Positions 30,458-52,476 of a DNA stretch of 64,000 nucleotides are shown here, in pieces; position 1 is the stretch's first letter; every line of letters begins with the position of its first letter. Under the pieces are notes generated by a model. The model made no database searches. It saw only the letters and a list, made by a program, of their open reading frames with translations, and was not told the origin of the DNA. The translations under genes were made by a program, and so were the position numbers. Source of the stretch: Georgenia sp. TF02-10 (GTDB taxonomy: Bacteria > Actinomycetota > Actinomycetes > Actinomycetales > Actinomycetaceae); the NCBI RefSeq assembly GCF_022759505.1, contig NZ_CP094289.1, positions 434,001-498,000 on the forward strand, given 5' to 3'.

Positions 30458-30475
30458 CAGTGTCACATAGCACTG
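30458..30475. promoter_or_regulatory. Putative GntR operator between hydroxyproline operon and regulator
   Basis: CAGTG-N8-CACTG is a perfect 5-bp inverted repeat containing TGTCACA (30461-30467). It lies between the divergent epimerase and GntR genes, where an autoregulated operator is expected. The TGTSACA core recurs at 31624, 31645, 44368 and 49601. Confidence 0.6.
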
Positions 30476-30575: not shown

Positions 30576-31256
30576 ATGCCCGCAGCCTCACCCTTCACCC
30601 CGGTGGTGCACGCCGCGAACCTGCGCACCCTGGTGGAGGACTCGGTGGCCGGGGCCATCGTCAGCGGCCAGCTGCCGCCCGGCGAGCTCGTCTCGGTGCC
30701 GGCCCTGGCGGCGGAGTTCGACGTCTCCGCCACCCCCGTCCGCGAGGCGATGATCAACCTGCAGCACCGCGGGCTGGTCGAGCCGGTGCGGAACAAGGGC
30801 TTCCGGGTCACCGCGGTCTCCGAGCAGGACCTGACCGAGATCGTCCAGCTGCGCCGGCTCGTCGAGCCCCCGGTCGTGCGGGACCTGGCCGGCGCCGTCG
30901 GCCCGGAGGACGTGGAGCGGCTGCGCGGCCTCGCCCGCGCCATCGTCGAGGCCGCCGACGCCGGGAACCTGCCGGCGTACCTGGCCGCCGACGTCGACTT
31001 CCACCGCGAGCTCGTCACGCTCGGCGGGAACCGGCGCATCGCCGCCCTGGTCACCGAGCTGCGGCGGGAGACCCGGCTGACCGGGCTCTCCGGCATGCTC
31101 AACACCGACCAGCTCGCCGAGTCCGCCGCGGAGCACGAGCGGCTGCTCGACCTCATCGCGGCCGCCGACGGCGACGGGGCCGAGGCCCTCATGAGCCGGC
31201 ACATCGGGCACGTGCTCGGCTGGTGGTCCGGCAGGCCGGAGCCGGCCGGCGGCTGA
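30576..31256 (+). CDS. GntR-family transcriptional regulator (FadR/FCD type)
   Basis: 226-aa regulator. The N-terminal winged helix (about residues 12-78) includes PGELVSVPALAAEFDVSATPVREAM, the typical GntR recognition region. A C-terminal FCD domain follows, with metal/effector-site residues such as D-x3-H in DVDFHRELV and the pair EHERLLDLI and SRHIGHV. ATG 30576 has a strong GGGAAGGAG Shine-Dalgarno. It is divergent from the hydroxyproline operon and upstream of the GH127/peptide operon, so it probably senses a hydroxyproline pathway intermediate and represses both. The TGTSACA motif is the best candidate binding site. Confidence 0.87.
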   Translation: MPAASPFTPVVHAANLRTLVEDSVAGAIVSGQLPPGELVSVPALAAEFDVSATPVREAMINLQHRGLVEPVRNKGFRVTAVSEQDLTEIVQLRRLVEPPVVRDLAGAVGPEDVERLRGLARAIVEAADAGNLPAYLAADVDFHRELVTLGGNRRIAALVTELRRETRLTGLSGMLNTDQLAESAAEHERLLDLIAAADGDGAEALMSRHIGHVLGWWSGRPEPAGG

Positions 31257-31679
31257 CCGCCCGGCAGGCCGGCCTGGGCCACTCGATGCCCGCGCCGCCC
31301 GTGCCGCCCGACGCGTGCCTGCCCTCGACGTCGCGGGTAACCCGGCCCGTCGACCGACGGCCGCGCGTTCGCTCGTTCGTGCCGAGCTCGAGGTTGTGCG
31401 CCGAGCTCGCAAGCGGTGACTAGCGAGCTCGGCCCGGACTGGCGAGCTCGGCACTGTCCGACAGCCGCGAGCTCGTTCGTTCGAGCCGACCCGGCGCCAG
31501 TCCGTCCGGCCGCAGTGGGTACGCCGTCGGCGATCGGTGACGGCATGGCGAGCGGCGCGGGTCGCCGTCGACGCCGGCACGAAACGCTGGCGTAACGAGG
31601 AGGGCCTAGCGTCACCGGTGACATGTCACATATGGTGTGCCGACTGTCACACGAAGCAGCCGTCCGTAAGGGAGAGGTC
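31257..31679. other. 423-bp intergenic region with GAGCTC cluster and GH127 promoter
   Basis: No convincing gene lies here. Five GAGCTC hexamers (starts 31384, 31403, 31425, 31444 and 31469) sit within about 90 bp, mostly within CGAGCTCG palindromes. Downstream, TAGCGT at 31607-31612 is a likely -10 element, followed by two TGTCACA sites around the presumed transcription start, and GGGAGAGG before the ATG at 31680. Confidence 0.6.
31621..31651 (+). promoter_or_regulatory. Paired TGTCACA operator sites upstream of GH127
   Basis: Two TGTCACA cores at 31624-31630 and 31645-31651 are spaced exactly 21 bp apart, about two helical turns, just downstream of the TAGCGT -10 candidate. The placement suits repression of the 10-kb GH127/peptide operon by the adjacent GntR protein. 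Confidence 0.55.
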
Positions 31680-33722: not shown

Positions 33723-35456
33723 ATGAAGAGATCCACAGTCATCTCCGCCGCGCTGGCTGCCGTGCTGGCGCTCGGGCTCGGCGCCTGCACCGGCGACGGG
33801 CAGTCCGGCGCCGACGCCGCCGGCGCCGGCACGGGCACCGGCTCGGGAAGCAGCTTCGGCGACACGCCCGAGCCCGGCGGCACCGTCTACATGTTCCAGC
33901 AGACCGACTTCTCCTACCTCGACCCCGCGCGCGGGTTCGACGGCGGGGTCAACAACTTCTACCGGCTCGTTTACCGGACCCTGACCACCTCCGCGCCGGG
34001 CAACGCCGAGGACCCCTCGGCGACCGTGCCCGACCTCGCCACCGACATGGGCACCCCGTCCGCCGACGGGCTCACCTGGACCTTCACCCTCAAGGAGGGG
34101 GTGAAGTTCGAGGACGGCACCCCGATCACCTCCGCGCACATCAAGTTCGGGGTCTCCCGCGCCTGGGACCCCGAGCTCGGCATCGGGTCCCCGTACGCCA
34201 AGCAGGTCATCGCCGCCCCCGAGGGGTACGAGGGGCCCTACCGCTCCGGGCCGCTGGAGACCATCGAGACGCCGGACGAGCGGACCATCGTCTTCCACCT
34301 CAAGGAGCCGTTCCCCGAGTTCGGCTACCTCGTCGCCCAGCCGAACTTCGCGCCCTTCCCCGAGGGGACCGGGGCCGGCGACGAGTTCATCAGCGGGCTC
34401 ATCTCCTCCGGACCGTACAAGCTCGAGTCGTATGAGCCCGGCAGCAGCATCTCCCTGGTGCGCAACGAGCACTGGGACCCGGAGACCGACGACGTCCGCG
34501 AGGCCTACCCGGACCGCTGGGAGTTCGTCCTGGGCCTGGACCCCGCCACCATCGACGAGCGGCTGCTCGCCGGGCAGGGCGCGGACGTCAACGCGATCGC
34601 CGGGGCGGTCCAGCCGGCCACGGTCCCGCGGCTGCAGGACCCGCGGTTCGCGGACCGGACCCTGAAGCTCCCCGGCGTCTGCACCACCTACCTGGGGCTG
34701 AACACCACGAAGGAGCCGCTGGACGACGTCCGGGTGCGGCAGGCGATCAACTTCGCCGTCGACAAGGCCGCGGTGCAGAACGCCAGCGGCGGCACCCAGC
34801 TGGCCGAGATCGCGACCACGATCCTGCCGCCGGCGCTGGGCGCGCGCCGGGAGTACGACCTCTACCCGAGCGAGGGGCACGCCGGCGACCCCGAGAAGGC
34901 GCGGGAGCTGCTGGCGGAGGCCGGCCTCGGCGACGGCTTCGAGCTCGTCCTGGACACCCGGGCCCAGCCGAAGATCCAGGCGCAGAGCGAGGCCATCCAG
35001 GAATCGCTCGGCGAGGTCGGCATCGACGTCCAGCTCAACGTCATCGACACCGCCACCTACTACGAGACGATCGGCACGACCTCCCAGCAGAACGACGCCG
35101 CCCTCACCGGGTGGTGCCCGGACTGGGCCTCCTCCGCCGGGACGTTCCTGCCGCCGCTCTTCCACGGCGAGAGCATCACGGAGAAGGGCAACACCAACCT
35201 CGCCCAGCTCAACGACCCGGCGATCAACGCCCGGATCGACGAGATCCGCGCGATGACCGACCTGGAGGCGGCGAACGAGGAGTGGGGCAAGCTCGACGAG
35301 GAGATCATGGAGCTCGCGCCCATCGTCCCGGTGGTCTACGAGTCCTCCATCACCGTCCCCGGGGAGAACGTCACCGGCCTGTACTCCTCCCCGGGCGCCG
35401 CGACCGGCGGCATCGACCTCGTCCTCGTCGGCCTGCGCGACCCGGAGCGCGGATGA
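33723..35456 (+). CDS. dppA: Peptide ABC transporter substrate-binding lipoprotein (SBP family 5)
   Basis: 577-aa extracytoplasmic binding lipoprotein. The signal peptide ends with a lipobox, ALGLGAC (Cys about residue 22), followed by a Gly/Ser/Ala-rich linker. The family 5 fold shows DPARGFDGG, LTWTFTLKEGVKFEDGTPIT and VRQAINFAVDKAAVQ. Family members bind di- and oligopeptides, nickel or sugars. Adjacent proline-specific peptidases suggest proline- or hydroxyproline-containing peptides here. The stop overlaps the permease start by 4 bases. Confidence 0.9.
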   Translation: MKRSTVISAALAAVLALGLGACTGDGQSGADAAGAGTGTGSGSSFGDTPEPGGTVYMFQQTDFSYLDPARGFDGGVNNFYRLVYRTLTTSAPGNAEDPSATVPDLATDMGTPSADGLTWTFTLKEGVKFEDGTPITSAHIKFGVSRAWDPELGIGSPYAKQVIAAPEGYEGPYRSGPLETIETPDERTIVFHLKEPFPEFGYLVAQPNFAPFPEGTGAGDEFISGLISSGPYKLESYEPGSSISLVRNEHWDPETDDVREAYPDRWEFVLGLDPATIDERLLAGQGADVNAIAGAVQPATVPRLQDPRFADRTLKLPGVCTTYLGLNTTKEPLDDVRVRQAINFAVDKAAVQNASGGTQLAEIATTILPPALGARREYDLYPSEGHAGDPEKARELLAEAGLGDGFELVLDTRAQPKIQAQSEAIQESLGEVGIDVQLNVIDTATYYETIGTTSQQNDAALTGWCPDWASSAGTFLPPLFHGESITEKGNTNLAQLNDPAINARIDEIRAMTDLEAANEEWGKLDEEIMELAPIVPVVYESSITVPGENVTGLYSSPGAATGGIDLVLVGLRDPERG

Positions 35457-36415
35457 GCGCCCAGTTCACCCTCACGACCCATGCCGAGCAGGTCGAGGGC
35501 TCGGGTGCGCCGGGAGCGGCGGACGGCGCGCCCGTCGCCCCGGTGCGGCGCCGCCGCCGGCCCGCGACCAACCTCGGCACGGCGCTGAGCATCGCCTACA
35601 TCGCCGTCGTCATCCTGATGGCGATCTTCGCCCCGCTCATCGTGCGGGTCAGCGGCTGGTCGCCCTACGAGTTCGACCAGGGCGCGATCGACCCGGCCCT
35701 CGGCGGGATGCCCGCCGGCGGGCGGGGCGGGATCTCGGCCGAGCACTGGTTCGGAGTCGAGCCCGGCAGCGGCCGGGACATCTTCGCGCGCATCGTCTAC
35801 GGCGCCCGGGTGTCGATGTCGATCGCGCTCTCGGCCACCGCGCTGACCACCGCGATCGGCGTCGTCATGGGCGTGCTCGCCGGGTACTTCGGCGGCCGGG
35901 TCGACCAGCTCATCTCCCGGGCGATGGACTTCCTGATGGCCTTCCCGGCGCTGATCTTCATGATCGCGATTCTCTCGGCGCTGCCCGCCGGTAACCGCTC
36001 GACCCTCCTGGTCATCGTCATCTCCATCTTCGGCTGGCCCTACCTCGCCCGGGTCGTCCGCGGGCAGACCATGTCCCTCGCCCAGCGCGAGTTCGTCGAG
36101 GCGGCCCGGGCGTCCGGGGCGAGCAACCTGGCGATCGTGTTCCGGGAGATCCTGCCCAACCTCGGACCGACGATCATCGTCATGACCACTCTGGCCGTGC
36201 CCGGCTACATCGGCACCGAGGCCGGGCTGTCCTTCCTCGGCGTCGGGGTGGTGCCGCCCGCGCCGTCGTGGGGGCAGATGATCGCGGCCTCGACCAGCTG
36301 GTACTCCGTCGTCCCCACCTACTTCCTCATCCCCGGCGCCTTCCTCTTCCTCCTGGTCATGTCCTTCACCGTCCTCGGCGACCGCCTCTCCGCCGTCCTC
36401 GGGGGGAGCCGCTGA
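35453..36415 (+). CDS. dppC: Peptide ABC transporter permease (DppC-like)
   Basis: 320-aa inner-membrane permease. A cytoplasmic N-terminal tail (about 40 aa) leads to a first helix (SIAYIAVVILMAIFAPLI), then a periplasmic loop and five more helices. The BPD_transp_1 EAA loop appears as EFVEAARASGASNLAIVFREILPN. The long N-terminal region and the periplasmic segment before the core are typical of DppC/OppC. The start overlaps the binding-protein stop (ATGA) and the stop overlaps the next permease gene by one base. The C-before-B order is reversed relative to E. coli dpp. Confidence 0.9.
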   Translation: MSAQFTLTTHAEQVEGSGAPGAADGAPVAPVRRRRRPATNLGTALSIAYIAVVILMAIFAPLIVRVSGWSPYEFDQGAIDPALGGMPAGGRGGISAEHWFGVEPGSGRDIFARIVYGARVSMSIALSATALTTAIGVVMGVLAGYFGGRVDQLISRAMDFLMAFPALIFMIAILSALPAGNRSTLLVIVISIFGWPYLARVVRGQTMSLAQREFVEAARASGASNLAIVFREILPNLGPTIIVMTTLAVPGYIGTEAGLSFLGVGVVPPAPSWGQMIAASTSWYSVVPTYFLIPGAFLFLLVMSFTVLGDRLSAVLGGSR

Positions 36416-37410
36416 TGATCCGCTACCTGACAGAACGCCTGCTCGCCGTGACGGTCGTGCTGTTCCTCGTCTGCCTCTTCACGTTCGTGATCTTCTTCGT
36501 CCTCTCCCCGGACCCGGCCGTGCAGATCTGCGGCAAGACCTGCACCCCCGAGCGGATCGACCAGATCCGGGCCAACCTCGGCCTGGACGAGCCGTTCACC
36601 ACCCAGTTCTTCGGCTTCCTCGGCGGGCTCTTCCTCGGCCGGACCTACGGCGAGGGGGCGGGTGCCATCGAGTGCGCCACGCCGTGCCTGGGCTACTCCT
36701 TCCAGTCCAGCCAGTCGGTGTGGGACATGGTCCTCACCCGGCTGCCGGTCTCCGTCTCGGTGGCGGTGGGCGCGGCGGTGCTCTGGCTGCTCAGCGGCGT
36801 CGCCGCCGGGCTGGTCAGCGCGTTCAAGCGGGGCACCTGGCTGGACCGCACCGCGATGGTGGCCGCCCTCTCCGGCATCTCCATCCCGAACTACGTCCTC
36901 GCCCTGGTCCTGCAGTACGTGCTCGTCGTGCAGCTCCAGTGGCTGCCGTTCCCCCAGCCCGTGCCGCTGAGCGAGAGCCCCGGCCGGTGGTTCCTCGCCT
37001 ACCTCATGCCCTGGATGGTGCTCGCCTTCGCGTACGCCTCGATGTACGCCCGGCTCACCCGGGCGAACGTCATCGAGACGCTCGGAGAGAACTTCGTCCG
37101 CACCGCCCGGGCGAAGGGCCTGGCCCCCCGGCTGCTGGTGCGCCGGCACGCGCTGCGCCCGGCGCTCACCCCGGTGATCACGCTCTTCGGCATGGACTTC
37201 GCCGGGCTCCTCGGCGGGGCGCTCATCACCGAGACGGTCTTCGGCCTCAACGGGGTGGGGAAGATGGCGGCGGACGCGATCGCCAAGAACGACCAGCCGG
37301 TCATCATGGCGGTGACCCTCCTCGCCGCCTTCTTCGTCATCATCGGCAACGTCATCGTCGACCTCGCCTACGCGGGGCTGGACCCGAGAGTGCGGGTGCG
37401 CGCAGCATGA
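36415..37410 (+). CDS. dppB: Peptide ABC transporter permease (DppB-like)
   Basis: 331-aa permease with the DppB/OppB pattern: an N-terminal helix (LLAVTVVLFLVCLFTFVIFF), the element RANLGLDEPFTTQFFGFLGG, and the EAA loop NFVRTARAKGLAPRLLVRRHALRPAL. ALITETVFGLNGVGKM is near the C-terminus. Two Cys pairs (ICGKTC and ECATPC) lie in the first periplasmic loop and could form disulphides. It starts within the preceding stop codon (TGATG) and its stop overlaps the first ATPase gene. Confidence 0.9.
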   Translation: MIRYLTERLLAVTVVLFLVCLFTFVIFFVLSPDPAVQICGKTCTPERIDQIRANLGLDEPFTTQFFGFLGGLFLGRTYGEGAGAIECATPCLGYSFQSSQSVWDMVLTRLPVSVSVAVGAAVLWLLSGVAAGLVSAFKRGTWLDRTAMVAALSGISIPNYVLALVLQYVLVVQLQWLPFPQPVPLSESPGRWFLAYLMPWMVLAFAYASMYARLTRANVIETLGENFVRTARAKGLAPRLLVRRHALRPALTPVITLFGMDFAGLLGGALITETVFGLNGVGKMAADAIAKNDQPVIMAVTLLAAFFVIIGNVIVDLAYAGLDPRVRVRAA

Positions 37411-38243
37411 CCGACATCCTCGAGGTCGACGACCTCACCGTGCGCTTCGAGACCCCGGCCGGCCCGACCGACGTCGTCCGCTCGCTCAGCTTCACGGTCG
37501 GGGAGGGCAGGTCCCTCGGGATCGTCGGGGAGTCCGGCTCCGGGAAGTCGATGACCAGCCTGGCGGTCATGGGCCTGCTGCCGGCGGGCGCCCAGCGGAC
37601 CGGCCGGATCACCCTGGGCGGGCAGGACCTGACCGCGATGTCGGAGGCCATGCTGCGCAAGGTGCGCGGCAACCGGGTGGCGATGATCTTCCAGGACCCG
37701 CTCTCCTCGCTCAACCCGTACTACACGGTCGGGCTGCAGATCGCCGAGGCGTACCGCTCGCACCGCCCGCGGGTCACCCGCCGGGAGGCCCGCCGGGTCG
37801 CCGTCGAGTCGCTCGAGCGGGTGCACATCGCCGACGCCGGCACCCGGGTGGACCACTACCCGCACCAGTTCTCCGGCGGGATGCGCCAGCGGGTGATGAT
37901 CGCCATGGCCCTGTGCATGGAGCCCGACCTGCTCATCGCGGACGAGCCGACCACGGCCCTGGACGTCACCGTCCAGGCGCAGGTGCTCGACCTCCTCGCC
38001 GAGATCCGGCGGGACACCGGCACCTCCCTGGTGTTCATCACGCACGACCTCGCCGTCGTCAGCGAGATCGCCGACGACGTGCTCGTCATGAAGGACGGGG
38101 TGCAGCGGGAGTACGGCAGCGCGGAGCAGGTGTTCTCCGCGCCGCGGGACCCCTACACCCGCGCCCTGCTCGACGCCGTGCCCCGGATCGACGACGAGGT
38201 CACCGACCTGCGCGTGCTCCCCGACCTGGGAGGACGCTCATGA
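37407..38243 (+). CDS. dppD: Peptide ABC transporter ATP-binding protein (DppD-like)
   Basis: 278-aa ABC ATPase. Walker A is GESGSGKSM (an uncommon Met after the Ser), the Q-loop is [16 protein letters not shown], the signature is FSGGMRQRV, and Walker B is [12 protein letters not shown]. The C-terminal oligopeptide-transporter helper region found in DppD is short here, lacking the long Cys-rich extension. Start and stop overlap both neighbours by 4 bases. Confidence 0.9.
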
Positions 38244-38276
38244 CCACCTCGGGGAGGACGCCCATGACCACCTCGG
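38229..38276 (+). repeat. 24-bp tandem duplication carrying Shine-Dalgarno and start codon
   Basis: 38229-38252 and 38253-38276 are near-identical (one difference, TC/CC before ATG). Each holds GGAGGACG followed by ATGACCACCTCGG. The gene therefore has two complete in-frame translation start sites at 38240 and 38264. Confidence 0.8.
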
Positions 38277-39151
38277 CCCCGCTGCTCCGCGCCCGGTCCC
38301 TCGTCAAGGAGTTCAGCACCCGCGACACTGCCGGCCTGTTCGGCCACCGGCGGACCTTCCGCGCCGTCGACGACGTCAGCCTCGACATCGCGGCCGGGCA
38401 GACCCTGGCCCTGGTCGGGGAGTCCGGGTCCGGGAAGTCCACGACCGCCCGGCTCGTCGGCCGCCTCCTCGACGTCACCGCCGGGACCGTGGAGGTCGAC
38501 GGGCAGGACGTGACCGGGCTCAGCGGCAAGGACCTGCACGCCTTCCGCTCCACTGTCCAGTTCGTTTTCCAGGACCCGTACTCCTCCCTCAACCCCCGGC
38601 ACACCGTGGAGCAGATCATCACCGCGCCGCTGCGCTACCAGGGCCGCAAGCCGCCCGGCGGTTCCCGCGCGTTCACCCGGGACCTGATGGACCGGGTCGG
38701 GCTGGACCCGGACCACCACCAGCGCTACCCCCGGCAGTTCTCCGGCGGGCAGGCCCAGCGGATCGGGATCGCCCGGGCGCTCGCGGTCGGCCCGCGCCTG
38801 GTCATCTGCGACGAGGCGGTCTCCGCGCTCGACGTCTCCGTCCAGGCCCAGGTGATCAACCTGCTGCGCCGGCTGCAGCGCGAGGAGTCCTTCAGCTACC
38901 TGTTCATCGCCCACGACCTCGCCGTCGTCCGGACCATCGCCCACCAGGTGGCCGTCATGCACCGGGGCAGGATCGTGGAGGCCGGGCACCGCGACGCGGT
39001 CTTCGACGCCCCGCAGCACGAGTACACCCGCCAGCTGCTGGCCGCCGTGCCCCGGATCCGGCCGGAGTGGGAACGGGCCCGGCGGGAGCGGGAGGCCGGG
39101 CTCCGGGCACCGGTGGACGAGCGGGTGGTGGAGGAGGAGGTCCGGTCATGA
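38240..39151 (+). CDS. dppF: Peptide ABC transporter ATP-binding protein (DppF-like)
   Basis: 303-aa second ATPase of the transporter. Walker A is GESGSGKST, followed by VFQDPYSSLNPRHTVEQI, signature FSGGQAQRIGI and Walker B LVICDEAVSALD (Ala-Val in place of Pro-Thr after DE). The N-terminus reads [14 protein letters not shown] because a 24-bp unit with the ribosome binding site is duplicated; either ATG (38240 or 38264) could initiate. I chose the first because it overlaps the upstream stop (ATGA). The stop overlaps the peptidase gene. Confidence 0.9.
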   Translation: MTTSGRTPMTTSAPLLRARSLVKEFSTRDTAGLFGHRRTFRAVDDVSLDIAAGQTLALVGESGSGKSTTARLVGRLLDVTAGTVEVDGQDVTGLSGKDLHAFRSTVQFVFQDPYSSLNPRHTVEQIITAPLRYQGRKPPGGSRAFTRDLMDRVGLDPDHHQRYPRQFSGGQAQRIGIARALAVGPRLVICDEAVSALDVSVQAQVINLLRRLQREESFSYLFIAHDLAVVRTIAHQVAVMHRGRIVEAGHRDAVFDAPQHEYTRQLLAAVPRIRPEWERARREREAGLRAPVDERVVEEEVRS

Positions 39152-40434
39152 TGACCAGGGAGTACGCCCTGCCCGGCATCTGGGTGCGCGAGCACACCGT
39201 GCCGGTCCCGCTGGACTGGTCCGACCCGGGCAGCCGGCCGATCGAGGTCTTCGTCCGCGAGCTGAGCGACCCGGCGCGCCGCACCGAGGACCTGCCGCTC
39301 CTGCTCTTCCTCCAGGGCGGCCCGGGCGGCAAGGGACCGCGCCCGGTGGACAGGTCCGGCTGGATCGGCGAGGCGCTGCGGCGGTTCCGGGTCGTCCTGC
39401 TCGATCAGCGCGGCACCGGCCGCAGCACCCCGGTGGACGGCTCGGACGTCACCGGCCTGGACGCCGTCGCCGCCGCCGACCTCCTCAGCCACTACCGTGC
39501 CGACTCCATCGTCCGGGACGCCGAGCACGTCCGCCGGACGCTCTACGACGGGCGCCGGTGGTCCACCCTCGGCCAGAGCTACGGCGGGTTCATCACCCTG
39601 ACCTACCTCTCCACCGCCCCCGACGGGCTCGCCGCGTGCTACGTCACCGGCGGCATCCCGGCCGTGCCGCCGGACCCCCGCGTGGTGTACGCCCACACCT
39701 ACGACCGGCTCGAGCGCAAGAACGCCGAGCTCTACGCCCGCTACCCGCACCTGGTGGCGGAGGTCGCCGGGATCGCCGACGTGCTCGAGGCGGAGGACGT
39801 GCGGCTTCCCGACGGCGACCGGCTGACCGTCCGCCGCCTGCAGAGCCTCGGCATCGACCTCGGGATGGGCCCCGGCCCGCAGCGGCTGCACTGGCTGCTG
39901 ACCGAGGCGTTCCGCGCGCCGGGAGTCTTCCAGCCGGCGTTCCTCGAGCAGGTTCAGGTCCGCACCGCGAGCACGGACAACCCGCTCTTCTGGGTGCTGC
40001 AGGAGTTCATTTACGGCGACGGCGCCAACGGCCCGACCGGCTGGGCCGCCCAGGCCGAGCGGGACCGGCGCCCGGCGTTCGCCGAGGACGCCCGCCCGCT
40101 CCTGCTCACCGGGGAGATGACCTACCCGTGGATGTTCACCGAGGTGAAGGCGCTCCGGCCGTTCCGGCCCGCGGTGGAGGAGCTCGCCGCCCGGGAGGTC
40201 TGGAGCGAGCTCTACGCCCCGGACCGGCTCGCCGCCAACGACGTGCCGCTGGCCGCAGCCGTGTACCTGGAGGACATGTTCGTGGCGTCCGCCCTCTCCC
40301 TGCGCACCCTGGACGGGATCGGGAACAGCCGGGCGTGGGCGACGAACGAGTTCGAGCACGACGGGCTGCAGAGCGGACGGGTCCTCTCCCGGCTGATCGA
40401 GCTCGTCGAGGACGATGGAGGAGAACGCCGATGA
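39148..40434 (+). CDS. pip: Proline iminopeptidase-like alpha/beta hydrolase (S33)
   Basis: 428-aa S33 peptidase releasing N-terminal proline (possibly hydroxyproline) from peptides. It has the oxyanion segment LFLQGGPGGKGP, VVLLDQRGTGRS and the nucleophile elbow TLGQSYGGFITL (Ser about residue 147), with the catalytic His near the C-terminus (FEHDGLQSGRV). No signal peptide is present. It is translationally coupled to the transporter ATPase (ATGATG at 39148) and to the following M24 peptidase, so imported peptides are its probable substrates. Confidence 0.88.
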   Translation: MMTREYALPGIWVREHTVPVPLDWSDPGSRPIEVFVRELSDPARRTEDLPLLLFLQGGPGGKGPRPVDRSGWIGEALRRFRVVLLDQRGTGRSTPVDGSDVTGLDAVAAADLLSHYRADSIVRDAEHVRRTLYDGRRWSTLGQSYGGFITLTYLSTAPDGLAACYVTGGIPAVPPDPRVVYAHTYDRLERKNAELYARYPHLVAEVAGIADVLEAEDVRLPDGDRLTVRRLQSLGIDLGMGPGPQRLHWLLTEAFRAPGVFQPAFLEQVQVRTASTDNPLFWVLQEFIYGDGANGPTGWAAQAERDRRPAFAEDARPLLLTGEMTYPWMFTEVKALRPFRPAVEELAAREVWSELYAPDRLAANDVPLAAAVYLEDMFVASALSLRTLDGIGNSRAWATNEFEHDGLQSGRVLSRLIELVEDDGGERR

Positions 40435-41918
40435 CCACCCCGATGACGACACCGACGACCACCCCGACGACGACGCCTCAGCCGACGCCGCCCGCCCCGC
40501 CGCGGCCGCGCTACGCCGGCACCCGGCCCCCCCGGCTCACAGAGGTCCCGGCGTTCACCCGGGCCATCGCCGAGGGCTGGGCTCCCACCACCGTCCCCGC
40601 ACCGGTCCCGCCCGGCGCCGCGGCGGCCGCCGCCGAGCACCGCCGTCGGCTCAGCGAGCAGCTGCCCGGCCGCACCGTCGTGGTCGCCGCCGGCCGGGCG
40701 CCGGTGCGCAGCAACGACACCTCCTACGACTTCCGGCCGGACAGCGACTTCCTGTGGCTCACCGGCTGCGCCGTCGAGGACGCCGTCCTCGTGCTGCGGC
40801 CCCGCGGGAGCGAGCACGACCCCGTCCTCTACCTCCCGGCGTCCGCCCGGCCCGGCGACCACCGGTTCTTCTCCGACGCCGCCCAGGGCGAGCTGTGGGT
40901 CGGGCCGTCGGCCGGGCTGGCGGAGTGGGCGGAGGCGCTCGGCATCCCGGTCCGGCCGCTCACCGAGCTCGACGAGCTCTCCCTCACCGGCGCCGACGCC
41001 GGCCGCCGGGTCGACGAGACGCTGCTCCGGCGCCACGGCATCGCCCGCTCCGCCGAGCTGGCCCGGGTGTGCTCGGACCTGCGGATGATCAAGGACGCCT
41101 GGGAGGTCGGGGAGCTCCGCCGCGCCGTCGACCACACCGTCGAGGGGTTCGCCGCCGTGCTCGCCGAGGTCCCCACGGCCGTCCAGCGGCACGGCGAGCG
41201 GTGGCTGCAGGGGACGTTCGACAGGTACGCCCGCGCCGTCGGCAACGGGCCCGGGTACGCCACCATCGTCGGGTCGGCGGGCCGGTCGGCCACCCTGCAC
41301 TGGGTCCGCTGCGACGGGCCGGTCGAGCCGGACGCCGTCCTCCTGCTGGACATGGGGGTGGAGGAACGCTCCTGCTACACCGCCGACGTCACCCGCACGG
41401 TCCCGCCCTCGGGCCGCTTCTCCCCGGCCCAGCGGCAGGTGCACGACCTCGTCGAGGCCGCGCACCGGGCCGGCCTGAGCCACGTCCGGCCCGGCGCGCA
41501 GTACTCGGACTTCCACTTCGCCGCGATGGAGGTCATCGCCGAGGGCCTGCACGACTGGGGGCTGCTCGGCATGTCGGTCGACGAGGCCCTCTCCCCGCAG
41601 GGGCAGCTGCACCGCCGCTACCTGGTCTGCGGGATCGGCCACCACCTCGGCCTGGATGTGCACGACTGCGCGCACTCCGACTACGAGCAGTACCAGGGCG
41701 CCACCATGGCGCCCGGGATGGTCCTCACGGTCGAGCCCGGGCTGTACTTCCACAGCCACGACCTCACCGTGCCGCCCGAGCTGCGCGGCACCGGCATCCG
41801 CATCGAGGACGACCTGCTCGTCACCGGCACCGGCGCCGAGCTGCTCTCCGCGGCGCTGCCGATCGACGCCGACGGGATCGAGCGGTGGGCGCGGGAGGCC
41901 ATGGGGGTGGGTCGGTAG
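40431..41918 (+). CDS. pepP: Xaa-Pro aminopeptidase (M24 family)
   Basis: 495-aa aminopeptidase P that removes an N-terminal residue preceding proline. The N-terminal creatinase-like domain (FRPDSDFLWLTGC) is followed by the pita-bread metallopeptidase domain. Metal ligands are recognisable in LLLDMGVEE ... YTADVTRT (two Asp), GIGHHLGLDVHD (His), LTVEPGLYF (Glu) and IRIEDDLLVT (Glu). The first 20 residues are a Thr/Pro repeat (TTPTTTPTTTP), possibly disordered. It is the last gene of the GH127/peptide operon, coupled to the iminopeptidase gene (ATGA). Confidence 0.92.
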   Translation: MTTPMTTPTTTPTTTPQPTPPAPPRPRYAGTRPPRLTEVPAFTRAIAEGWAPTTVPAPVPPGAAAAAAEHRRRLSEQLPGRTVVVAAGRAPVRSNDTSYDFRPDSDFLWLTGCAVEDAVLVLRPRGSEHDPVLYLPASARPGDHRFFSDAAQGELWVGPSAGLAEWAEALGIPVRPLTELDELSLTGADAGRRVDETLLRRHGIARSAELARVCSDLRMIKDAWEVGELRRAVDHTVEGFAAVLAEVPTAVQRHGERWLQGTFDRYARAVGNGPGYATIVGSAGRSATLHWVRCDGPVEPDAVLLLDMGVEERSCYTADVTRTVPPSGRFSPAQRQVHDLVEAAHRAGLSHVRPGAQYSDFHFAAMEVIAEGLHDWGLLGMSVDEALSPQGQLHRRYLVCGIGHHLGLDVHDCAHSDYEQYQGATMAPGMVLTVEPGLYFHSHDLTVPPELRGTGIRIEDDLLVTGTGAELLSAALPIDADGIERWAREAMGVGR

Positions 41919-44364: not shown

Positions 44365-44375
44365 ATGTGTGACAT
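44365..44375 (+). promoter_or_regulatory. Putative GntR operator upstream of the amino acid importer
   Basis: ATGT-GTG-ACAT is a perfect inverted repeat containing TGTGACA (44368-44374), the same core (reverse complement) as in the hydroxyproline and GH127 promoters. It lies 50 bases before livK. Confidence 0.55.
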
Positions 44376-44425: not shown

Positions 44426-45601
44426 ATGAGGAACCCCTTCTCGCGCCGGGGCCACGCCGCCGTGGCCCTCGGTGCGGTCGCGGCTCTCGCGCTCGGTGCC
44501 TGCTCGGGCGGCGTGGCCGGCGGCGAGGACGCCGCCACCGAGGACGAAGGCCCGATCAGGCTCGGCATGCTCGCGCCGTTCTCCGGCTCCGAGGCCGCCT
44601 TCGGCCCGTACATGGAGAACGGCGCCCAGATGGCGATCGACGAGATCAACGAGGACGGGGGCGTCCTGGATCGTGACCTCGAGCTGGTCACGGAGGACGA
44701 CGCCTGCGACGCCACGAGCGCCACGGCCGCCGCGAACAAGCTCATCACCGCCGGCATCGTCGCCTCCGTCGGCGGGTACTGCTCCGGCGCGACGCTGCCG
44801 ACCCTGCCGATCTTCGCCGACGCCGGCGTGCCGATGGTCATCCCGGCGGCGAACTCCAACCAGCTCGTCGAGGCCGACGAGAACGGCGTCTTCCTCATCA
44901 ACGGCACCGGCGACCAGCAGGCCCAGGCGGCGCTGGAGTGGGCGCAGAAGCAGGGCGCCCAGCGCCTGGCGCTGGTCGACGACAACACCGACTACTCCGC
45001 CGACCTCGCCGCCGCCGTCGCCGAGCAGGCCGCGGAGACCGACATCGAGATCGTCCTGGAGGAGTCCGTCACCGCCGGCGAGTCGGACTACTCGGCCAAC
45101 GTCAACTCGATCCTCTCGGCCGACCCGGACATGGTCTACTGGACCGGCTACTACCAGGAGGGTGGGCTCATCGCCGCCCAGCTGGCCGCGGCCGGCTACG
45201 CCGGCGAGCTGCTCGTCGCCGACGGCACCGTCGACGCGAAGTTCGCCGAGATCGCCGGCGCCGCCGCCCAGGGCGTCGAGGGCACGTTCACCCAGACCCC
45301 GGACATGCTCGAGGGCGCCGAGGACTGGATCGCGCAGTACGAGGAGCGCTACGGCGAGGGCCCCGGCCCGTACTCCACCCAGGCCTACGACGCCGTCCGG
45401 GTCGTCGCCGAGGGCATCGAGGCGGCCGGCGGCACCGAGAGCGAGGCGCTGATCGAGGCCATCCAGAACATCGACGGCCTCGAGCTCTTCTCCGGCCCGC
45501 TGAAGTTCACCGAGGAGGGCACCCTCTCCGCCGGCGGCTTCGCCATCGTCGAGGTCGGCCCGGAGGGCGACTTCGTCCTCCTCGACGACCTCCAGGGCTG
45601 A
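44426..45601 (+). CDS. livK: Branched-chain-type amino acid ABC transporter binding lipoprotein (LivK family)
   Basis: 391-aa type 1 periplasmic-binding-protein fold lipoprotein. The signal peptide ends in ALALGAC (lipobox Cys about residue 26). The ligand-binding part shows RLGMLAPFSGSEAAFGPYMENG, VGGYCSGATLPTLPIFADAG and VYWTGYYQEGGLIAAQL. This HAAT-family module imports branched-chain or other amino acids. With the operator shared with the hydroxyproline genes and a hydroxyproline-type deaminase gene after the transporter, free hydroxyproline or proline is a plausible ligand. Strong Shine-Dalgarno GGAAGGA before ATG 44426. Confidence 0.88.
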   Translation: MRNPFSRRGHAAVALGAVAALALGACSGGVAGGEDAATEDEGPIRLGMLAPFSGSEAAFGPYMENGAQMAIDEINEDGGVLDRDLELVTEDDACDATSATAAANKLITAGIVASVGGYCSGATLPTLPIFADAGVPMVIPAANSNQLVEADENGVFLINGTGDQQAQAALEWAQKQGAQRLALVDDNTDYSADLAAAVAEQAAETDIEIVLEESVTAGESDYSANVNSILSADPDMVYWTGYYQEGGLIAAQLAAAGYAGELLVADGTVDAKFAEIAGAAAQGVEGTFTQTPDMLEGAEDWIAQYEERYGEGPGPYSTQAYDAVRVVAEGIEAAGGTESEALIEAIQNIDGLELFSGPLKFTEEGTLSAGGFAIVEVGPEGDFVLLDDLQG

Positions 45602-45809
45602 CCGGCGCGGGGCCGGGCGGCGGCTGGACGCCGCCCGGACCCCCGTCCGGCTCCCCAGCCGCCGGCTCCCCAGCCGCCGGCTCCCGCCGTCGCCGGCTCC
45701 GTCAGGGCCGGCTCCCGCCGCCGCCGGCTCCCGCCCCGCCCCCATCCCTGCCCGCGTCCAGCCCCTGCCCCGCCCCCGCCCCGCCCCCATCTCCCGGGAG
45801 GCACGTGCC
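45602..45809 (+). other. 208-bp livK-livH spacer with GCCGGCTCCC repeats and a C-tract
   Basis: At least six copies of (A/G/C)GCCGGCTCCC lie between 45640 and 45735. They are followed by a C-rich run (45762-45788) whose complementary strand has four or more runs of four to five G, a potential G-quadruplex. No ORF is credible. Such a spacer may lower expression of membrane genes relative to the binding protein. Confidence 0.55.
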
Positions 45810-46703
45810 GTGCTCCAGCTCGTCGTCGACGGTCTCTTCGTCGGCTCCTTCTACGCCCTCGTCGCCCTGGGGTACTCGATGGTCTACGGGATCATCAAGC
45901 TCCTGAACTTCGCCCACGGGGACGTCTACATGGTCGGCGCGTTCACCGGCTTCGTCGTGCTCAGCTCGGTCACCGGCGTCGCGGCCGTCGGGGGGCTCGC
46001 GTCGATCCTCATCGTCCTGCTCATCGCCATGCTGCTGACCGGGATCCTCGGGGTCACCGTCGAGCGGGTCGCCTACCGGCCGCTGCGCGCCAGCCCTCGC
46101 CTCGCCGTCCTCATCACCGCCGTCGGCGTCTCCTTCATCCTCGAGTACGGCGTCCGGCAGATCATGGGGCCCAACCCCCGCGTGTACCCGGTCCGGCTGA
46201 GCGGGGAGACGTTCAACCTGCTCGGTGCGCGCATCACGCTGCCGCAGATCATCCTGTTCGCCGTCGCCGCCGGGCTGATGGTGGCGCTGAACTACCTCGT
46301 CATGCGGTCCCGCGACGGGCGGGCCATGCGGGCGATCGCGCTGGACCCGCAGGCCGCGAAGCTCATGGGCGTCAACGTCGACGCCGTCATCTCCCGGACC
46401 TTCTTCATCGGCTCCGCCCTCGCCGGCGCCGCCGGTGTCATGGCGGGCGCGTACTACGGCACCGTCGACTTCCTCATGGGCTTCGTCATCGGCCTCAAGG
46501 CCTTCACCGCCGCCGTCATCGGCGGCATCGGCAACCTCTACGGGGCGATGCTCGGCGGGATCCTCCTCGGCCTGCTCGAGTCCTTCGGAACGAACTTCCT
46601 GGGCGGGGAGTGGCGGGACGTGTTCTCGTTCGCCTGCCTGATCCTCTTCCTCTCGTTCCGACCCACCGGCATCCTCGGCGCCCGCGTCGTGGAACGGATG
46701 TGA
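45810..46703 (+). CDS. livH: Amino acid ABC transporter permease (LivH)
   Basis: 297-aa permease with about eight hydrophobic helices. Family hallmarks are GLFVGSFYALVALGYSMVYGIIKLLNFAHGD at the N-terminus (first 17 residues quoted in part only), RVAYRPLRASPRLAVLITAVG, RAIALDPQAAKLMGVNVD and GLKAFTAAVIGGIGNLYGAM. GTG 45810 follows GGGAGG. It pairs with LivM, which starts 4 bases after its stop. Confidence 0.92.
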   Translation: MLQLVVDGLFVGSFYALVALGYSMVYGIIKLLNFAHGDVYMVGAFTGFVVLSSVTGVAAVGGLASILIVLLIAMLLTGILGVTVERVAYRPLRASPRLAVLITAVGVSFILEYGVRQIMGPNPRVYPVRLSGETFNLLGARITLPQIILFAVAAGLMVALNYLVMRSRDGRAMRAIALDPQAAKLMGVNVDAVISRTFFIGSALAGAAGVMAGAYYGTVDFLMGFVIGLKAFTAAVIGGIGNLYGAMLGGILLGLLESFGTNFLGGEWRDVFSFACLILFLSFRPTGILGARVVERM

Positions 46704-46707
46704 CGCC

Positions 46708-47892
46708 ATGACCCAGACATCCTCGTCGAGGACCAGCCAGGCCCAGCCCGCCCCCGAGCAGGCCGTGCGCGGGCTGGCCTACCGGTTCCGACCGCCCGCC
46801 CCGACCCGCGCGCGGCCCGCCCCCGAGCGGGGCCTCCTCCAGCCCCGGCGGTTCATGTCCGGCGCCGGCGCCGTGCTGCTCCTGCTCGCGCTCGCGGTGC
46901 CGTTCATCAACGCCTCGCCGTACATCATCTCGATCGGCACCTCGGCGTTCATCTACATCATGCTGGCGATGGGGCTGAACATCGTCGTCGGCTACGCCGG
47001 GCTCCTCGACCTCGGGTACTACGCCTTCTTCGCCGTCGGCGCCTACACCTCCGGCGTCCTCGCCACCGGCGGCATGCCGCTGGTCTTCACCATCCCGTTC
47101 GTGATCCTCGCCTGCATCGCCGCCGGGATCATCATCGGCGGGCCGACCCTGCGGCTGCGCAGCGACTACCTCGCCATCGTCACCCTGGGCTTCGGCGAGA
47201 TCATCCGGCTCACCGCCAACAACCTGGAGCTCACCGGCGGGCCCTCCGGCATCAGCGGCATCCCCACCTTCTCGTTCCTCGGGTGGTCCTTCCGGGACGG
47301 CCTGGACCTGTTCGGGATCCACTTCAACGGCGACATCCTGCTGTACTACACGGCCGTCCTCGCCGGCGGCGGCTTCACCGTCCTCGCCGTCGCGCGGCTC
47401 GGCAAGGGCCGGCTCGGCCGGGCCTGGCGGGCGATCAAGGACGACGAGGACGCCGCCGAGGCGATGGGTATCAACACCTACCTCACCAAGCTCGCCGCGT
47501 ACGTCCTCGGCGCGATCTTCGGCGGGCTCGCCGGGATCCTGATGAGCGCCCACCAGTCGGCCATCAGCCCGACGTCGTTCGTCTTCCTCAACTCCGCGCT
47601 CCTGCTCATGGCCGTCGTCCTCGGCGGCATGGGCTCCACCCCGGGCGTCCTCATCGGCGCGCTCGTCATCTCCCTCGCCCCGGAGCTGCTGCGCGACTTC
47701 GCGAGCTGGCGCTTCCTCCTCTTCGGCGTCCTCCTCGTCCTCATGATGATCTTCCGCCCGCAGGGGCTGTGGCCGTCGACGGCGGTCCTGCCGTTCCTGC
47801 GGTTCCGGCGCGAGGGGCGCTCGCCGCGCGAGGGCTTCGGCCCGCACGTCCCCGACGACGAGAACCTGGACCGGTCCGGGGAGCAGGCATGA
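46708..47892 (+). CDS. livM: Amino acid ABC transporter permease (LivM)
   Basis: 394-aa permease partner of LivH. A cytoplasmic Pro/Arg/Gln-rich N-terminal tail (about 50 aa) precedes eight to ten helices. Hallmarks are AMGLNIVVGYAGLLDLGYYAF, RLRSDYLAIVTLGFGEIIRL, AIKDDEDAAEAMGINTYLTK and VVLGGMGSTPGVLIGA. A charged C-terminal tail ends in DDENLDRSGEQA. The stop overlaps livG (ATGA). Confidence 0.92.
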   Translation: MTQTSSSRTSQAQPAPEQAVRGLAYRFRPPAPTRARPAPERGLLQPRRFMSGAGAVLLLLALAVPFINASPYIISIGTSAFIYIMLAMGLNIVVGYAGLLDLGYYAFFAVGAYTSGVLATGGMPLVFTIPFVILACIAAGIIIGGPTLRLRSDYLAIVTLGFGEIIRLTANNLELTGGPSGISGIPTFSFLGWSFRDGLDLFGIHFNGDILLYYTAVLAGGGFTVLAVARLGKGRLGRAWRAIKDDEDAAEAMGINTYLTKLAAYVLGAIFGGLAGILMSAHQSAISPTSFVFLNSALLLMAVVLGGMGSTPGVLIGALVISLAPELLRDFASWRFLLFGVLLVLMMIFRPQGLWPSTAVLPFLRFRREGRSPREGFGPHVPDDENLDRSGEQA

Positions 47893-48743
47893 GAGCAGCG
47901 AGCGAGAACGCGCCCACGAACCCGGCGCCCGCCGTCGGCAGCACGACGGCGGCCCCGGACGGTGCCGTGCCCCTGCTCCGGGTGCGTGACCTCGGCCTGA
48001 GCTTCGGCGGCGTCCGCGCCGTCGACGGGCTGACCTTCGACGCCCGGGCCGGGCAGATCATCTCTGTCATCGGCCCCAACGGCGCCGGCAAGACCAGCGC
48101 CTTCAACTGCATCACCGGCTTCTACAAGCCGACGTCGGGCCAGATCCTCTTCGACGGCGAGCACATCACCCGCCGCCAGCCGTCGACGATCGCCCAGAAG
48201 GGCCTGGCCCGCACCTTCCAGAACGTGCGCATGTTCCGGGAGATGACCGTCGTGGACAACGTCAAGACGGCGATGCACTCCCGGATCCGGCAGAACGTCT
48301 TCGACGCCATCCTGCACACCCCGCGCTACCGCCGGGTGGAGCGGCAGGCCCTGGAGGACGCCCGCGGGTGGCTCGACTTCGTCGGCTTCTCCCACGATGA
48401 GGACCTCCTCGCCGCCCAGCTGCCCTACGGGGAGCAGCGACGGGTCGAGATCGCCCGGGCGCTGGCGTCCCAGCCGCGGATGCTCCTCCTCGACGAGCCC
48501 GCCGCCGGCCTCAACCACAGCGAGAAGCAGGACCTCATCGCCCTCATCCGCCGCATCCGGGACCTCGGGATCGGGGTCGTCCTCATCGAGCACGACATGG
48601 GCCTGGTCATGAACATCTCCGAGCGCGTGGTCGTCCTCAACTTCGGCAAGGAGATCGCCGAGGGCACTCCCGAGGAGGTCCGCCGCAACCCGGACGTCGT
48701 CGAGGCCTACCTCGGCGCAGAGGACGAGGGGGACGCGCGGTGA
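47889..48743 (+). CDS. livG: Amino acid ABC transporter ATP-binding protein (LivG)
   Basis: 284-aa ABC ATPase. An Ala/Pro/Thr-rich N-terminal extension (about 27 aa) comes before the domain. Walker A is GPNGAGKTS, then GLARTFQNVRMFREMTVVDN, signature LPYGEQRRVE and Walker B LLLDEPAAGLN. The Leu-Pro-Tyr-Gly-Glu form of the signature is typical of LivG. Coupled by 4-base overlaps to livM and livF. Confidence 0.92.
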   Translation: MRAASENAPTNPAPAVGSTTAAPDGAVPLLRVRDLGLSFGGVRAVDGLTFDARAGQIISVIGPNGAGKTSAFNCITGFYKPTSGQILFDGEHITRRQPSTIAQKGLARTFQNVRMFREMTVVDNVKTAMHSRIRQNVFDAILHTPRYRRVERQALEDARGWLDFVGFSHDEDLLAAQLPYGEQRRVEIARALASQPRMLLLDEPAAGLNHSEKQDLIALIRRIRDLGIGVVLIEHDMGLVMNISERVVVLNFGKEIAEGTPEEVRRNPDVVEAYLGAEDEGDAR

Positions 48744-49450
48744 ACGAGGAGCTCGTCGTCGACGGGGTCGACCTCTTCTACGGCCGGGTCCAGGCCCTGC
48801 GCGGCCTCAGCCTCACGGTCGGGTCCGGCGAGGTCGTCGCTATTCTCGGCAACAACGGAGCCGGGAAGACCTCGACCCTGTCGATGCTCTCCGGCCTGTA
48901 CCGCCCGCACCGCGGCACGGTTACCTGGAACGGCGAGGACATCACGAGCACCAGTCCCTGGGACCTGGTCAAGGCGGGCCTGGTCCAGGTGCCTGAGGGC
49001 CGGCGGATCTTCTCGACGATGACCGTGCACGAGAACCTCCAGCTCGGCGGGTACCAGGTCCGCGACCCGAAGGACCTCGCCGGGCGGATCGACGCCGTCT
49101 ACGAGATGCTCCCCCGGCTCGGGGAACGGCGGAACCAGCAGGGCGGCACCCTCTCCGGCGGCGAGCAGCAGATGCTCGCCATCGGCCGGGGCTACGTGAG
49201 CCGCCCGCGCCTGCTGCTCCTCGACGAGCCCTCGATGGGCCTCGCCCCGCTCGTCGTCAAGCAGGTCATGGAGCTGGTCAAGAGCATCAACGACGGCGGC
49301 ACGACGATCCTGCTCGTCGAGCAGAACGCCCGGGCCGCCCTGCGGATCGCCCACCGGGCCTACGTCATCGAGTCCGGCCGGGTGGCGCTGTCCGGGTCGG
49401 CGGCCGAGCTCGCCCAGGACCGGGCGGTCATCGAGGCGTACATGGGCTGA
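48740..49450 (+). CDS. livF: Amino acid ABC transporter ATP-binding protein (LivF)
   Basis: 236-aa second ATPase. Walker A is GNNGAGKTS, then VPEGRRIFSTMTVHENLQLG, signature LSGGEQQMLAIGRG and Walker B LLLDEPSMGLAP, all standard for LivF. The GTG start overlaps the livG stop. It ends 228 bp before the deaminase gene, which has its own operator-like site. Confidence 0.92.
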   Translation: MNEELVVDGVDLFYGRVQALRGLSLTVGSGEVVAILGNNGAGKTSTLSMLSGLYRPHRGTVTWNGEDITSTSPWDLVKAGLVQVPEGRRIFSTMTVHENLQLGGYQVRDPKDLAGRIDAVYEMLPRLGERRNQQGGTLSGGEQQMLAIGRGYVSRPRLLLLDEPSMGLAPLVVKQVMELVKSINDGGTTILLVEQNARAALRIAHRAYVIESGRVALSGSAAELAQDRAVIEAYMG

Positions 49451-49594: not shown

Positions 49595-49613
49595 GTAGAG
49601 TGTGACATACTAC
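49595..49613 (+). promoter_or_regulatory. Putative GntR operator upstream of the DapA-family gene
   Basis: GTAG-N11-CTAC with AGTGT/ATACT inside forms a 19-bp imperfect palindrome centred on TGTGACA (49601-49607). It is the fourth promoter region with this core and lies 66 bases before the ATG. Confidence 0.55.
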
Positions 49614-49678
49614 AGACTGCGACCAACCGATCTACCGGTGCCCCGCGCCGCGGCCGGCACAAGATGAAGGGTGAGGAC

Positions 49679-50620
49679 ATGGCTGAGCTCGACCTGGGCG
49701 GCGTCGTCGTCGCGACCGCCTTGCCGTACAAGGAGAACCCGTCGGCGCCGGCCGGCCTCGAGGTCGACTACGACCGCTTCGCCGAGCACTGCGCGTGGCT
49801 GGTCGACAACGGCTGCCGCGGGGTGGGCCCGAACGGGTCCCTCGGCGAGTACTCCTCGCTCACCGACGAGGAGCGCCGCCGGGTCGTCCAGACCGCCGTG
49901 CGGGCGGTGGCCGGCCGGGGCATCGTCGTCGCCGGCGTGCACGGGCCGGGCTGGCACCAGGCCCGGCACTGGGCCGAGGTGGCGGCCGAGGACGGCGCCG
50001 ACGGCGTGCTGTGCCTGCCGCCGACGATGTACCGCGCCGACCGGGCCGGCGTCGTCGAGCACTTCACCAAGGTCGCCGAGGTCGGCCTGCCGGTGATGAT
50101 CTACAACAACCCCATCGACACCAAGGTCGACCTGACCCCCGACCTCGTCGCCGAGCTCGCCGGCATCGACAACGTCGTGGCCATCAAGGAGTTCAGCACC
50201 GACGTGCGCCGGCCCTTCGAGATCACCGACGCCTGCGAGGCGGCCGGGACGAGGATCGACGTCATCGCCGGCGCGGACGACCTGCTCTTCGAGTGCATGG
50301 TCGACGGCGCGGTCGGCTGGTTCGGCGGGTACCCGAACGTCTTCCCGGCCGAGGCCGTGGCGGTGTACGACCACATGGTCGCCGGGCGGTACGCCGAGGC
50401 ACGCGCGATCTACCGCAGCCTCGTCGCCGCGTTCCGCTGGGACTCCAAGACGGAGTTCGTCCAGGCGATCAAGCTGGGCATGGACATGGTCGGCCGGTAC
50501 GGCGGCCCGTGCCGCCCGCCGCGCACGGCCCTGAGCCCGGAGCTCGAGGCCCGGGTGCGGGCGGACACCCAGCGCGCCCTCGACGCCCTGGGGACGCTCA
50601 CGGTGGGGGTCACGGCCTGA
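49679..50620 (+). CDS. DapA/NAL-family protein, probable pyrroline-4-hydroxy-2-carboxylate deaminase
   Basis: 313-aa class I aldolase-fold enzyme. The family site GPNGSLGEYSSLTDEER, the Tyr in VMIYNNPIDTKVDL and the Schiff-base Lys in VVAIKEFSTD are present. Members include dihydrodipicolinate synthase, N-acetylneuraminate lyase and the hydroxyproline-pathway deaminase, which yields alpha-ketoglutarate semialdehyde. The operator shared with the hydroxyproline operon and the absence of any other deaminase there favour the last role. ATG 49679 has a GAAGGGTGAGG Shine-Dalgarno; an ATG at 49664 is possible. Confidence 0.8.
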   Translation: MAELDLGGVVVATALPYKENPSAPAGLEVDYDRFAEHCAWLVDNGCRGVGPNGSLGEYSSLTDEERRRVVQTAVRAVAGRGIVVAGVHGPGWHQARHWAEVAAEDGADGVLCLPPTMYRADRAGVVEHFTKVAEVGLPVMIYNNPIDTKVDLTPDLVAELAGIDNVVAIKEFSTDVRRPFEITDACEAAGTRIDVIAGADDLLFECMVDGAVGWFGGYPNVFPAEAVAVYDHMVAGRYAEARAIYRSLVAAFRWDSKTEFVQAIKLGMDMVGRYGGPCRPPRTALSPELEARVRADTQRALDALGTLTVGVTA

Positions 50621-52430: not shown

Positions 52431-52476
52431 GGCGAGGGCCCCTGGTGCGCCGGGACGGGGGCACGGAGGCAGCCGC

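Follow-up and report, generated by a model that had tools for sequence, protein, structure and literature searches.

The open reading frame at 49679..50620 (+) encodes a 313-aa protein of the dapA family, which we predict to be a Δ1-pyrroline-4-hydroxy-2-carboxylate (Pyr4H2C) deaminase on the basis of its Pfam match, its place in a phylogenetic tree, its active-site residues and the gene neighbourhood of its relatives. An alternative in-frame ATG upstream, at 49664, is a possible start. All positions are those of the window, the whole 64,000-nucleotide stretch of DNA that was analysed (bases 434001-498000 of contig C1 in a 4.09-Mb genome of four contigs, 98% complete). The gene follows a Liv-type amino-acid ABC importer (44426..49450, +; SBP, LivH, LivM, LivG and LivF), whose SBP was identified by a match to the family library and whose other four genes were named from sequence and gene order. 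The LivF gene ends at 49450 and dapA starts 228 bases further on, presumably as its own transcription unit behind the importer.

The hydroxyproline operon runs from 30374 to 24827 (-). Its first gene (29373..30374, -) encodes a protein of the Cys/Cys proline-racemase family (Pro_racemase, 443 bits) with the motifs MCGHGT and DRSPCGTG. It misses every NCBIfam cutoff (355 bits for 4-hydroxyproline epimerase, cutoff 376) and is predicted to be a 4-hydroxyproline 2-epimerase from its family, its Cys/Cys motifs and its context. Domain matches identify an FAD-dependent protein of the DAO family (28132..29376, -), a 2Fe-2S subunit (Fer2_4; 27869..28135, -) and an FAD/BFD-type subunit (26293..27885, -). 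The first of these is a predicted D-hydroxyproline dehydrogenase subunit, by analogy with the S. coelicolor system in the available part of its account (PMC6608401). The aldehyde dehydrogenase gene (Aldedh; 24827..26296, -), predicted to encode α-ketoglutarate-semialdehyde dehydrogenase, shows 50% to the ALDH of the hydroxyproline region on Sinorhizobium meliloti pSymB. Divergent from the operon is a gene (30576..31256, +) for a regulator with GntR and FCD domains, a predicted HypR-type repressor, which travels with the hydroxyproline cluster in relatives. No DHDPS gene was found in the operon from 30374 to 24827 (-), just as an earlier note on this DNA had described an operon devoid of its DapA-family deaminase.

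At the operon end (24830-23812, -) lies a second gene of the proline-racemase family. It is broken near 24.2-24.3 kb and occupies two frames, so that either the gene is a pseudogene or the sequence contains an error. Its first part has trans-3-hydroxyproline dehydratase as best NCBIfam match, below the cutoff, and unbroken copies occur in three genomes of the genus g22 (G118, G125 and G139). Near the operon, at 20792-21890 (+), there is also a gene of the ornithine-cyclodeaminase (OCD) family, the class of Δ1-pyrroline-2-carboxylate reductase. An OCD-type gene and a GntR gene have one TGTSACA site in common in the relatives' loci L045, L046, L050, L051 and L060, hinting at a trans-3-hydroxyproline branch.

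In the pathway that we propose, the epimerase would yield cis-4-hydroxy-D-proline, which the three-subunit D-hydroxyproline dehydrogenase would convert to Pyr4H2C. The dapA-family enzyme, through a Schiff base at Lys170, would turn Pyr4H2C into α-ketoglutarate semialdehyde and ammonia, and the aldehyde dehydrogenase would carry the semialdehyde on to α-ketoglutarate.

Sequence, phylogeny and relatives of the deaminase

The dapA-family protein matches Pfam DHDPS (PF00701) with 150 bits. Its Lys170 and Tyr142 align with K161 and Y133 of E. coli DapA, in agreement with the earlier description of a DapA homologue with the Schiff-base lysine behind the Liv importer. In the same alignment T44, T45, Y107 and R138 of E. 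coli DapA are replaced by S, L, M and D, respectively. Thr44, Tyr107 and Arg138 (E. coli DapA numbering) are functional residues of DHDPS. The motifs YNNPxDTK and KEF are common to the window deaminase and the hydroxyproline-cluster forms of Streptomyces and Arthrobacter. A structure predicted from five aligned sequences was of poor quality (mean pLDDT 64.6) and was set aside.

The best PDB matches carry the name dihydrodipicolinate synthase, and the best NCBIfam score is that of TIGR00674 (dapA), as would be expected of an ordinary dihydrodipicolinate synthase (or some other aldolase) whose gene stood beside Liv by chance. However, this score (148.4 bits) falls below the cutoff of 206.15. A tblastn search of the whole genome found three other DHDPS homologues, each 31% identical to the window protein; two of them score above the dapA cutoff, and the third reaches 193.4 against 206.15. 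An ordinary DHDPS is ruled out by the replacement of T44, T45, Y107 and R138 (the DHDPS Arg being Asp here), by the sub-cutoff dapA score and by the two genes above the cutoff elsewhere. The neighbourhood and the tree described below also argue against a DHDPS or another aldolase, which we regard as extremely unlikely.

The tree was computed from 46 proteins, 27 of them taken from the 80 relatives considered below and 19 others. The window deaminase groups with the three g22 proteins (99/95) within a 34-row clade of hydroxyproline-cluster proteins (98/97), away from E. coli DapA, NanA and YagE, which fall outside it together with the genome's own three paralogues. The earlier note had allowed for a placement with DapA; the position obtained is that of the hydroxyproline-cluster forms. 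The S. meliloti pSymB protein, which we take to be HypD because of where its gene is located, shares the window deaminase's side of the tree (100/99) with a branch of 7.0, and this branch is so long that the placement is unsure and provides no evidence. A "lysine-pathway dapA" on the Priestia megaterium plasmid pBMV_2 (L204:196-10401) is found amid proline-racemase, FAD oxidase and ALDH genes; as the tree puts it on the side of the deaminases, that annotation is probably wrong.

The relatives are the best 80 of 532 loci from a search of genome contigs, with 64-80% identity. Among these best 80 of 532, a 4-hydroxyproline epimerase gene stands beside the deaminase gene in 78 (at most 400 bp away, same strand), and the deaminase gene is directly 3' of the FAD/BFD subunit gene in 71. 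The deaminase thus normally lies among the pathway genes, as had been stated. One of the two exceptions, L082, ends 145 bases past the gene. In the other, L041 (Actinoplanes couchii, 9856-13000), dapA adjoins a GntR gene and a dipeptide importer and has its own 30-bit operator; no epimerase was found within 10 kb of this dapA, which makes it a second instance of a detached deaminase.

The deaminase gene (E <= 1e-60) was found in 6 of the 200 genomes of the window's family, its own genome included, and the epimerase (E <= 1e-40) in 10. Six of the epimerases, at least 71% identical, come from exactly the six dapA genomes, and the other four (43-46%) from genomes that have no dapA at the cutoff. 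In G011 the deaminase gene is inside the operon, between the genes for the FAD/BFD protein and the epimerase, and in G071 it adjoins the epimerase gene. That the window gene may close the gap in an otherwise incomplete hydroxyproline pathway of this strain, as the earlier note had proposed, is supported by the tree and by the neighbourhood of the relatives.

A plasmid of Arthrobacter sp. ERGS1:01 (L203:5964-18183) brings two proline-racemase-family genes, an α/β hydrolase and an aminopeptidase P together with the deaminase. The same stretch has OCD, GntR, dehydrogenase and ALDH genes, and no GH127 is annotated there.

Array layout and candidate operators

The start of dapA is 19.3 kb from the start of the epimerase gene in the window, matching the 19-kb separation given before, and about 6 kb from it in the three g22 genomes. 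In those genomes the operon is flanked by GntR, Liv SBP, H, M, G, F and dapA, in the order and orientation of the window, which has about 13 kb extra between GntR and Liv. This insert holds a GH127 gene, an SBP5 and Dpp importer, an α/β hydrolase, an aminopeptidase-P gene and a second FAD oxidase (42032-43114). The 19-kb distance therefore arises because this insert of some 13 kb interrupts a colinear GntR-Liv-dapA array, at whose far end the deaminase gene stands. Given the colinearity of the array in all three genomes, we rejected a random scattering of the deaminase. The stretch 3' of dapA (51408-54941, +) has a gene for a zinc alcohol dehydrogenase that is close to idonate 5-dehydrogenase, and also a DUF4862 gene and one for a sugar transporter. 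These genes gave no operator match and probably form a separate sugar-acid unit.

A candidate operator, TGTGACATACTACAG, is located upstream of the deaminase gene at 49601..49615 (+). Its heptamer TGTGACA (49601-49607), already reported in front of the gene, lies 71 bases 5' of the dapA ATG. Candidate sites were scored by a 23-base model from 74 training sites, all in other genomes. Of these, 61 came from the 80 loci, where they had been chosen for lying 5' of matched genes; the other 13 came from the window's family and included dapA, Liv and epimerase promoters orthologous to those of the window. The consensus of the 74 sites is TGTGACATATTACTG. TGTSACA occurs 38 times in the 4.09-Mb genome, and the first four ranks of the 38 are the deaminase site (32.3 bits), a site upstream of the Liv importer (44368..44374, +; 29.9 bits), one between the epimerase operon and the GntR gene (30461..30467, -; 25.1 bits) and one 49 bases 5' of the GH127 gene (31624..31630, -; 21.1 bits). 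They lie 49 to 108 bases from start codons. The fifth rank has 10.4 bits, a drop of 10.7 bits. The top four are all in the window; its fifth site, at 31645, was rejected as an operator, with -5.0 bits in the model. Since orthologous promoters of the three close relatives were part of the training, the test is not fully independent for three of the four top sites. The GH127 promoter, which has no orthologue in these relatives (the gene is absent at that place), still ranks fourth. The model thus supports the earlier proposal that the deaminase gene and the operon have the same predicted operator, which the GH127 gene and the Liv importer carry too.

The bare TGTGACA is weak evidence alone, its counts being unremarkable against a dinucleotide model: the window has 5 where shuffling predicts 2.5 (6 shuffles in 100 reach 5), and the 80 relative loci have 89 against 96. 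Matches with three mismatches to the longer pattern TGTGACATAYTACWG are also at background level (16, while the pattern reversed as a control gives 12). These counts are what one would see if the deaminase were correctly assigned and the common TGTGACA were a chance short motif in regulatory DNA. However, the 16 are all the further matches there are, and the only one with zero mismatches in the 4.09 Mb is the extended site at the deaminase gene (49601). In addition to the 10.7-bit step below the four window sites, a TGTSACA site is present upstream of dapA in the three g22 genomes, and sites above 20 bits precede dapA in L041, L101, L111 and L113. We hold a chance motif to be very improbable.

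Conservation extends to the other promoters. The site upstream of Liv is kept at the same position in the three g22 genomes and in Pseudoclavibacter (L036-L038), and a TGTSACA precedes SBP5 in G011, L039, L040, L041, L043, L049 and L053 (59-62% identity of the SBP5 in the six L loci). A site above 20 bits is present in 38 of the best 80 of 532 loci, indicating that the rest of the clade relies on different sites, or has none in the examined stretch.

This suggests that one operator, predicted at four places of the 4.1-Mb genome, governs the whole hydroxyproline pathway. The GntR/FCD repressor encoded beside the epimerase probably binds the TGTGACATAYTACWG-type operators and would so switch the deaminase gene and the operon together, presumably upon induction by hydroxyproline. 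On the strength of these sequence comparisons we consider it very probable that the dapA-family gene encodes the Pyr4H2C deaminase of the hydroxyproline pathway and is co-switched with the operon by this repressor.

The GH127 cassette and comparison with known systems

The insert begins with a gene of the GH127 β-L-arabinofuranosidase family (31680..33668, +), identified by its GH127 domains and by alignment with solved GH127 enzymes. The Cys and Glu stretches of the active site are present in this alignment, and we take the aligned Cys and Glu residues to be the catalytic ones. Its PDB matches are 6ex6 ('six-hairpin glycosidase', 336 bits), 4qjy (β-L-arabinofuranosidase, 312) and 3wkw (β-L-arabinofuranosidase, 269), the last being presumably HypBA1; its NCBIfam match is aceric acid hydrolase (333, cutoff 950). 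By the PDB scores it is nearer to 6ex6 and 4qjy than to 3wkw. The most hydrophobic 12 residues of the N-terminus average 1.81 in the window protein, no more than 1.0 in any of six relatives, and 2.5 and 2.7 in the two binding proteins, which are exported. By this N-terminal hydropathy, the sole basis of the comparison and with some starts ambiguous, no clear signal peptide was found in the GH127 protein, suggesting that glycopeptides would be trimmed inside the cell.

The next genes encode a dipeptide/oligopeptide ABC importer (33723..39151, +; SBP_bac_5, two permeases and two ATPases, the first of them at 37407-38243), with family matches for the SBP, the permeases and the second ATPase. They are followed by an α/β hydrolase gene (Abhydrolase_1; 39151..40434, +), a weak proline-iminopeptidase relative (best NCBIfam match prolyl aminopeptidase, 35 bits, far under the cutoff), and a gene of the Xaa-Pro aminopeptidase (aminopeptidase P) family (AMP_N and Peptidase_M24; 40431..41918, +; 193 bits for NCBIfam Xaa-Pro aminopeptidase, cutoff 465).

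A class-level search gave GH127 matches in 34 of 394 genomes. The closest relatives come from five genomes besides its own (57-66% identity, the next having 48%), and all five have GH127-SBP5-DppC-B-D-F-M24 around the gene. Four of them also have the α/β hydrolase, which was not found in G408. No cassette gene was found around six control GH127 genes (46-48% identity), taken from the upper part of the list of the 28 remaining GH127 genomes; the control locus G340 ends at a contig end and is visible mostly on one side, and G410 shows a 31% match to the window's alcohol dehydrogenase. The epimerase is present in all five close-GH127 genomes (71-79% identity) and in none of the six control genomes. 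The GH127-SBP5-Dpp-M24 cassette is a recurring unit in actinobacteria; three of the five genomes belong to one genus and do not represent independent events.

The position of the cassette varies. In G412 and G488 it directly joins GntR-DAO-FAD-dapA-epimerase-ALDH, and a strong site (41 and 40 bits) precedes the dehydrogenase operon, not GH127. L052 has GH127-SBP5-DppC-DppB, cut by the locus end, divergent from the hydroxyproline operon and directly adjoining it with the GH127 end. The cassette of G293 ends with a GntR gene, the epimerase being elsewhere in the genome, and that of G408 has no hydroxyproline gene nearby. The window alone showed an operator before GH127 itself; the examined stretches of G408, G330, G293 and L052 contain no site above 15 bits.

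L-2-keto-3-deoxyarabonate dehydratase belongs to the same Pfam family as DHDPS, so that the window gene might be a 2-keto-3-deoxy sugar-acid dehydratase of this kind, leading arabinose released by GH127 to the same α-ketoglutarate semialdehyde step. Such a role would suit the predicted operator shared with GH127, and in G330 a 54% dapA relative closes the cassette while the contig has no epimerase. Yet the relatives sit in hydroxyproline operons, a GH127 gene being found within 10 kb at a single one of the best 80 of 532 loci, the arabinose isomerase (PF02610) of the genome points to the isomerase route for arabinose, and no molecule named as a sugar-acid dehydratase is among the best 60 of 90 PDB matches. 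On these indirect grounds a dehydratase is a highly unlikely alternative to the Pyr4H2C deaminase.

By itself the displaced deaminase gene is ordinary, and the surrounding array is of more interest. Slightly short of an even chance, in our estimate, is the reading that one GntR repressor governs a full pathway by which arabinosylated hydroxyproline peptides from plant extensins would be used, the insert of about 13 kb included. The dipeptide importer would take in the glycopeptides, the cytoplasmic GH127 enzyme would cleave off arabinose and the proline-type peptidases would release hydroxyproline. Liv would take up free hydroxyproline, and the epimerase-to-deaminase pathway would burn it. If true, this would provide a genetic handle on soil actinobacteria that use the protein backbone of extensins and not the sugars alone.

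In predicted reaction and family, the window deaminase resembles LhpC of Pseudomonas and HypD of S. meliloti, reportedly the subjects of work by Watanabe and by White in 2012 (cited in PMC6608401 and PMC4113996). The sequence comparison covered the pSymB form, with which it has in common the catalytic Lys and Tyr and the GS(L/M)G and KEF motifs, at about 24% identity. The literature search returned no useful report of a solved LhpC structure.

The closest described regulon is that of S. coelicolor with SCO6292, which in the accessible text comprises a GntR/FCD HypR repressor, DAO-Fer2-FAD, an epimerase and a DapA-family deaminase, with an operator of ATGTCAC core (PMC6608401). The published HypR consensus, CTNTGC(A/C)ATGTCAC, overlaps the window operator and is not identical to it (PMC6608401). 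The S. coelicolor order is DAO-Fer2-FAD-deaminase-epimerase, so that the deaminase, in that text also only predicted, is inside the operon, whereas it is detached in the window. The further repressed genes named there are a collagenase and 2-oxoglutarate decarboxylase/dehydrogenase (PMC6608401); the predicted targets in the window are instead Liv, GH127 and the dipeptide importer with its peptidases. In Streptomyces lividans TK24, genes predicted to encode an epimerase, an oxidase, a deaminase and a dehydrogenase are reportedly up-regulated on trans-4-hydroxyproline, and the portion of that account at hand mentions no detached deaminase and no GH127 (PMC4113996).

GH127 enzymes acting on hydroxyproline-linked arabinosides are described, in the part of the paper available, for Bifidobacterium longum (HypBA1) and as a homologue from Xanthomonas (PMC6085000). 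The window protein belongs to the same β-L-arabinofuranosidase family; it stands in a hydroxyproline array, whereas those enzymes supply L-arabinose, and it has no clear signal peptide, unlike the Xanthomonas homologue (PMC6085000). Another report predicts GH127 action on extensin arabinose, and the text available from it contains no hydroxyproline-degradation pathway (PMC4454575). As far as these sources go, the product of interest in both GH127 papers is arabinose (PMC6085000, PMC4454575), whereas it would be the amino acid here if the extensin reading is true. Among the open-access matches listed in a non-exhaustive search, none tied GH127 or peptide uptake to hydroxyproline catabolism by title or start of abstract. 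The deaminase and the HypR-type regulon are of known kinds, and the tie of GH127 and peptide uptake to hydroxyproline catabolism is new, as far as literature searches show.
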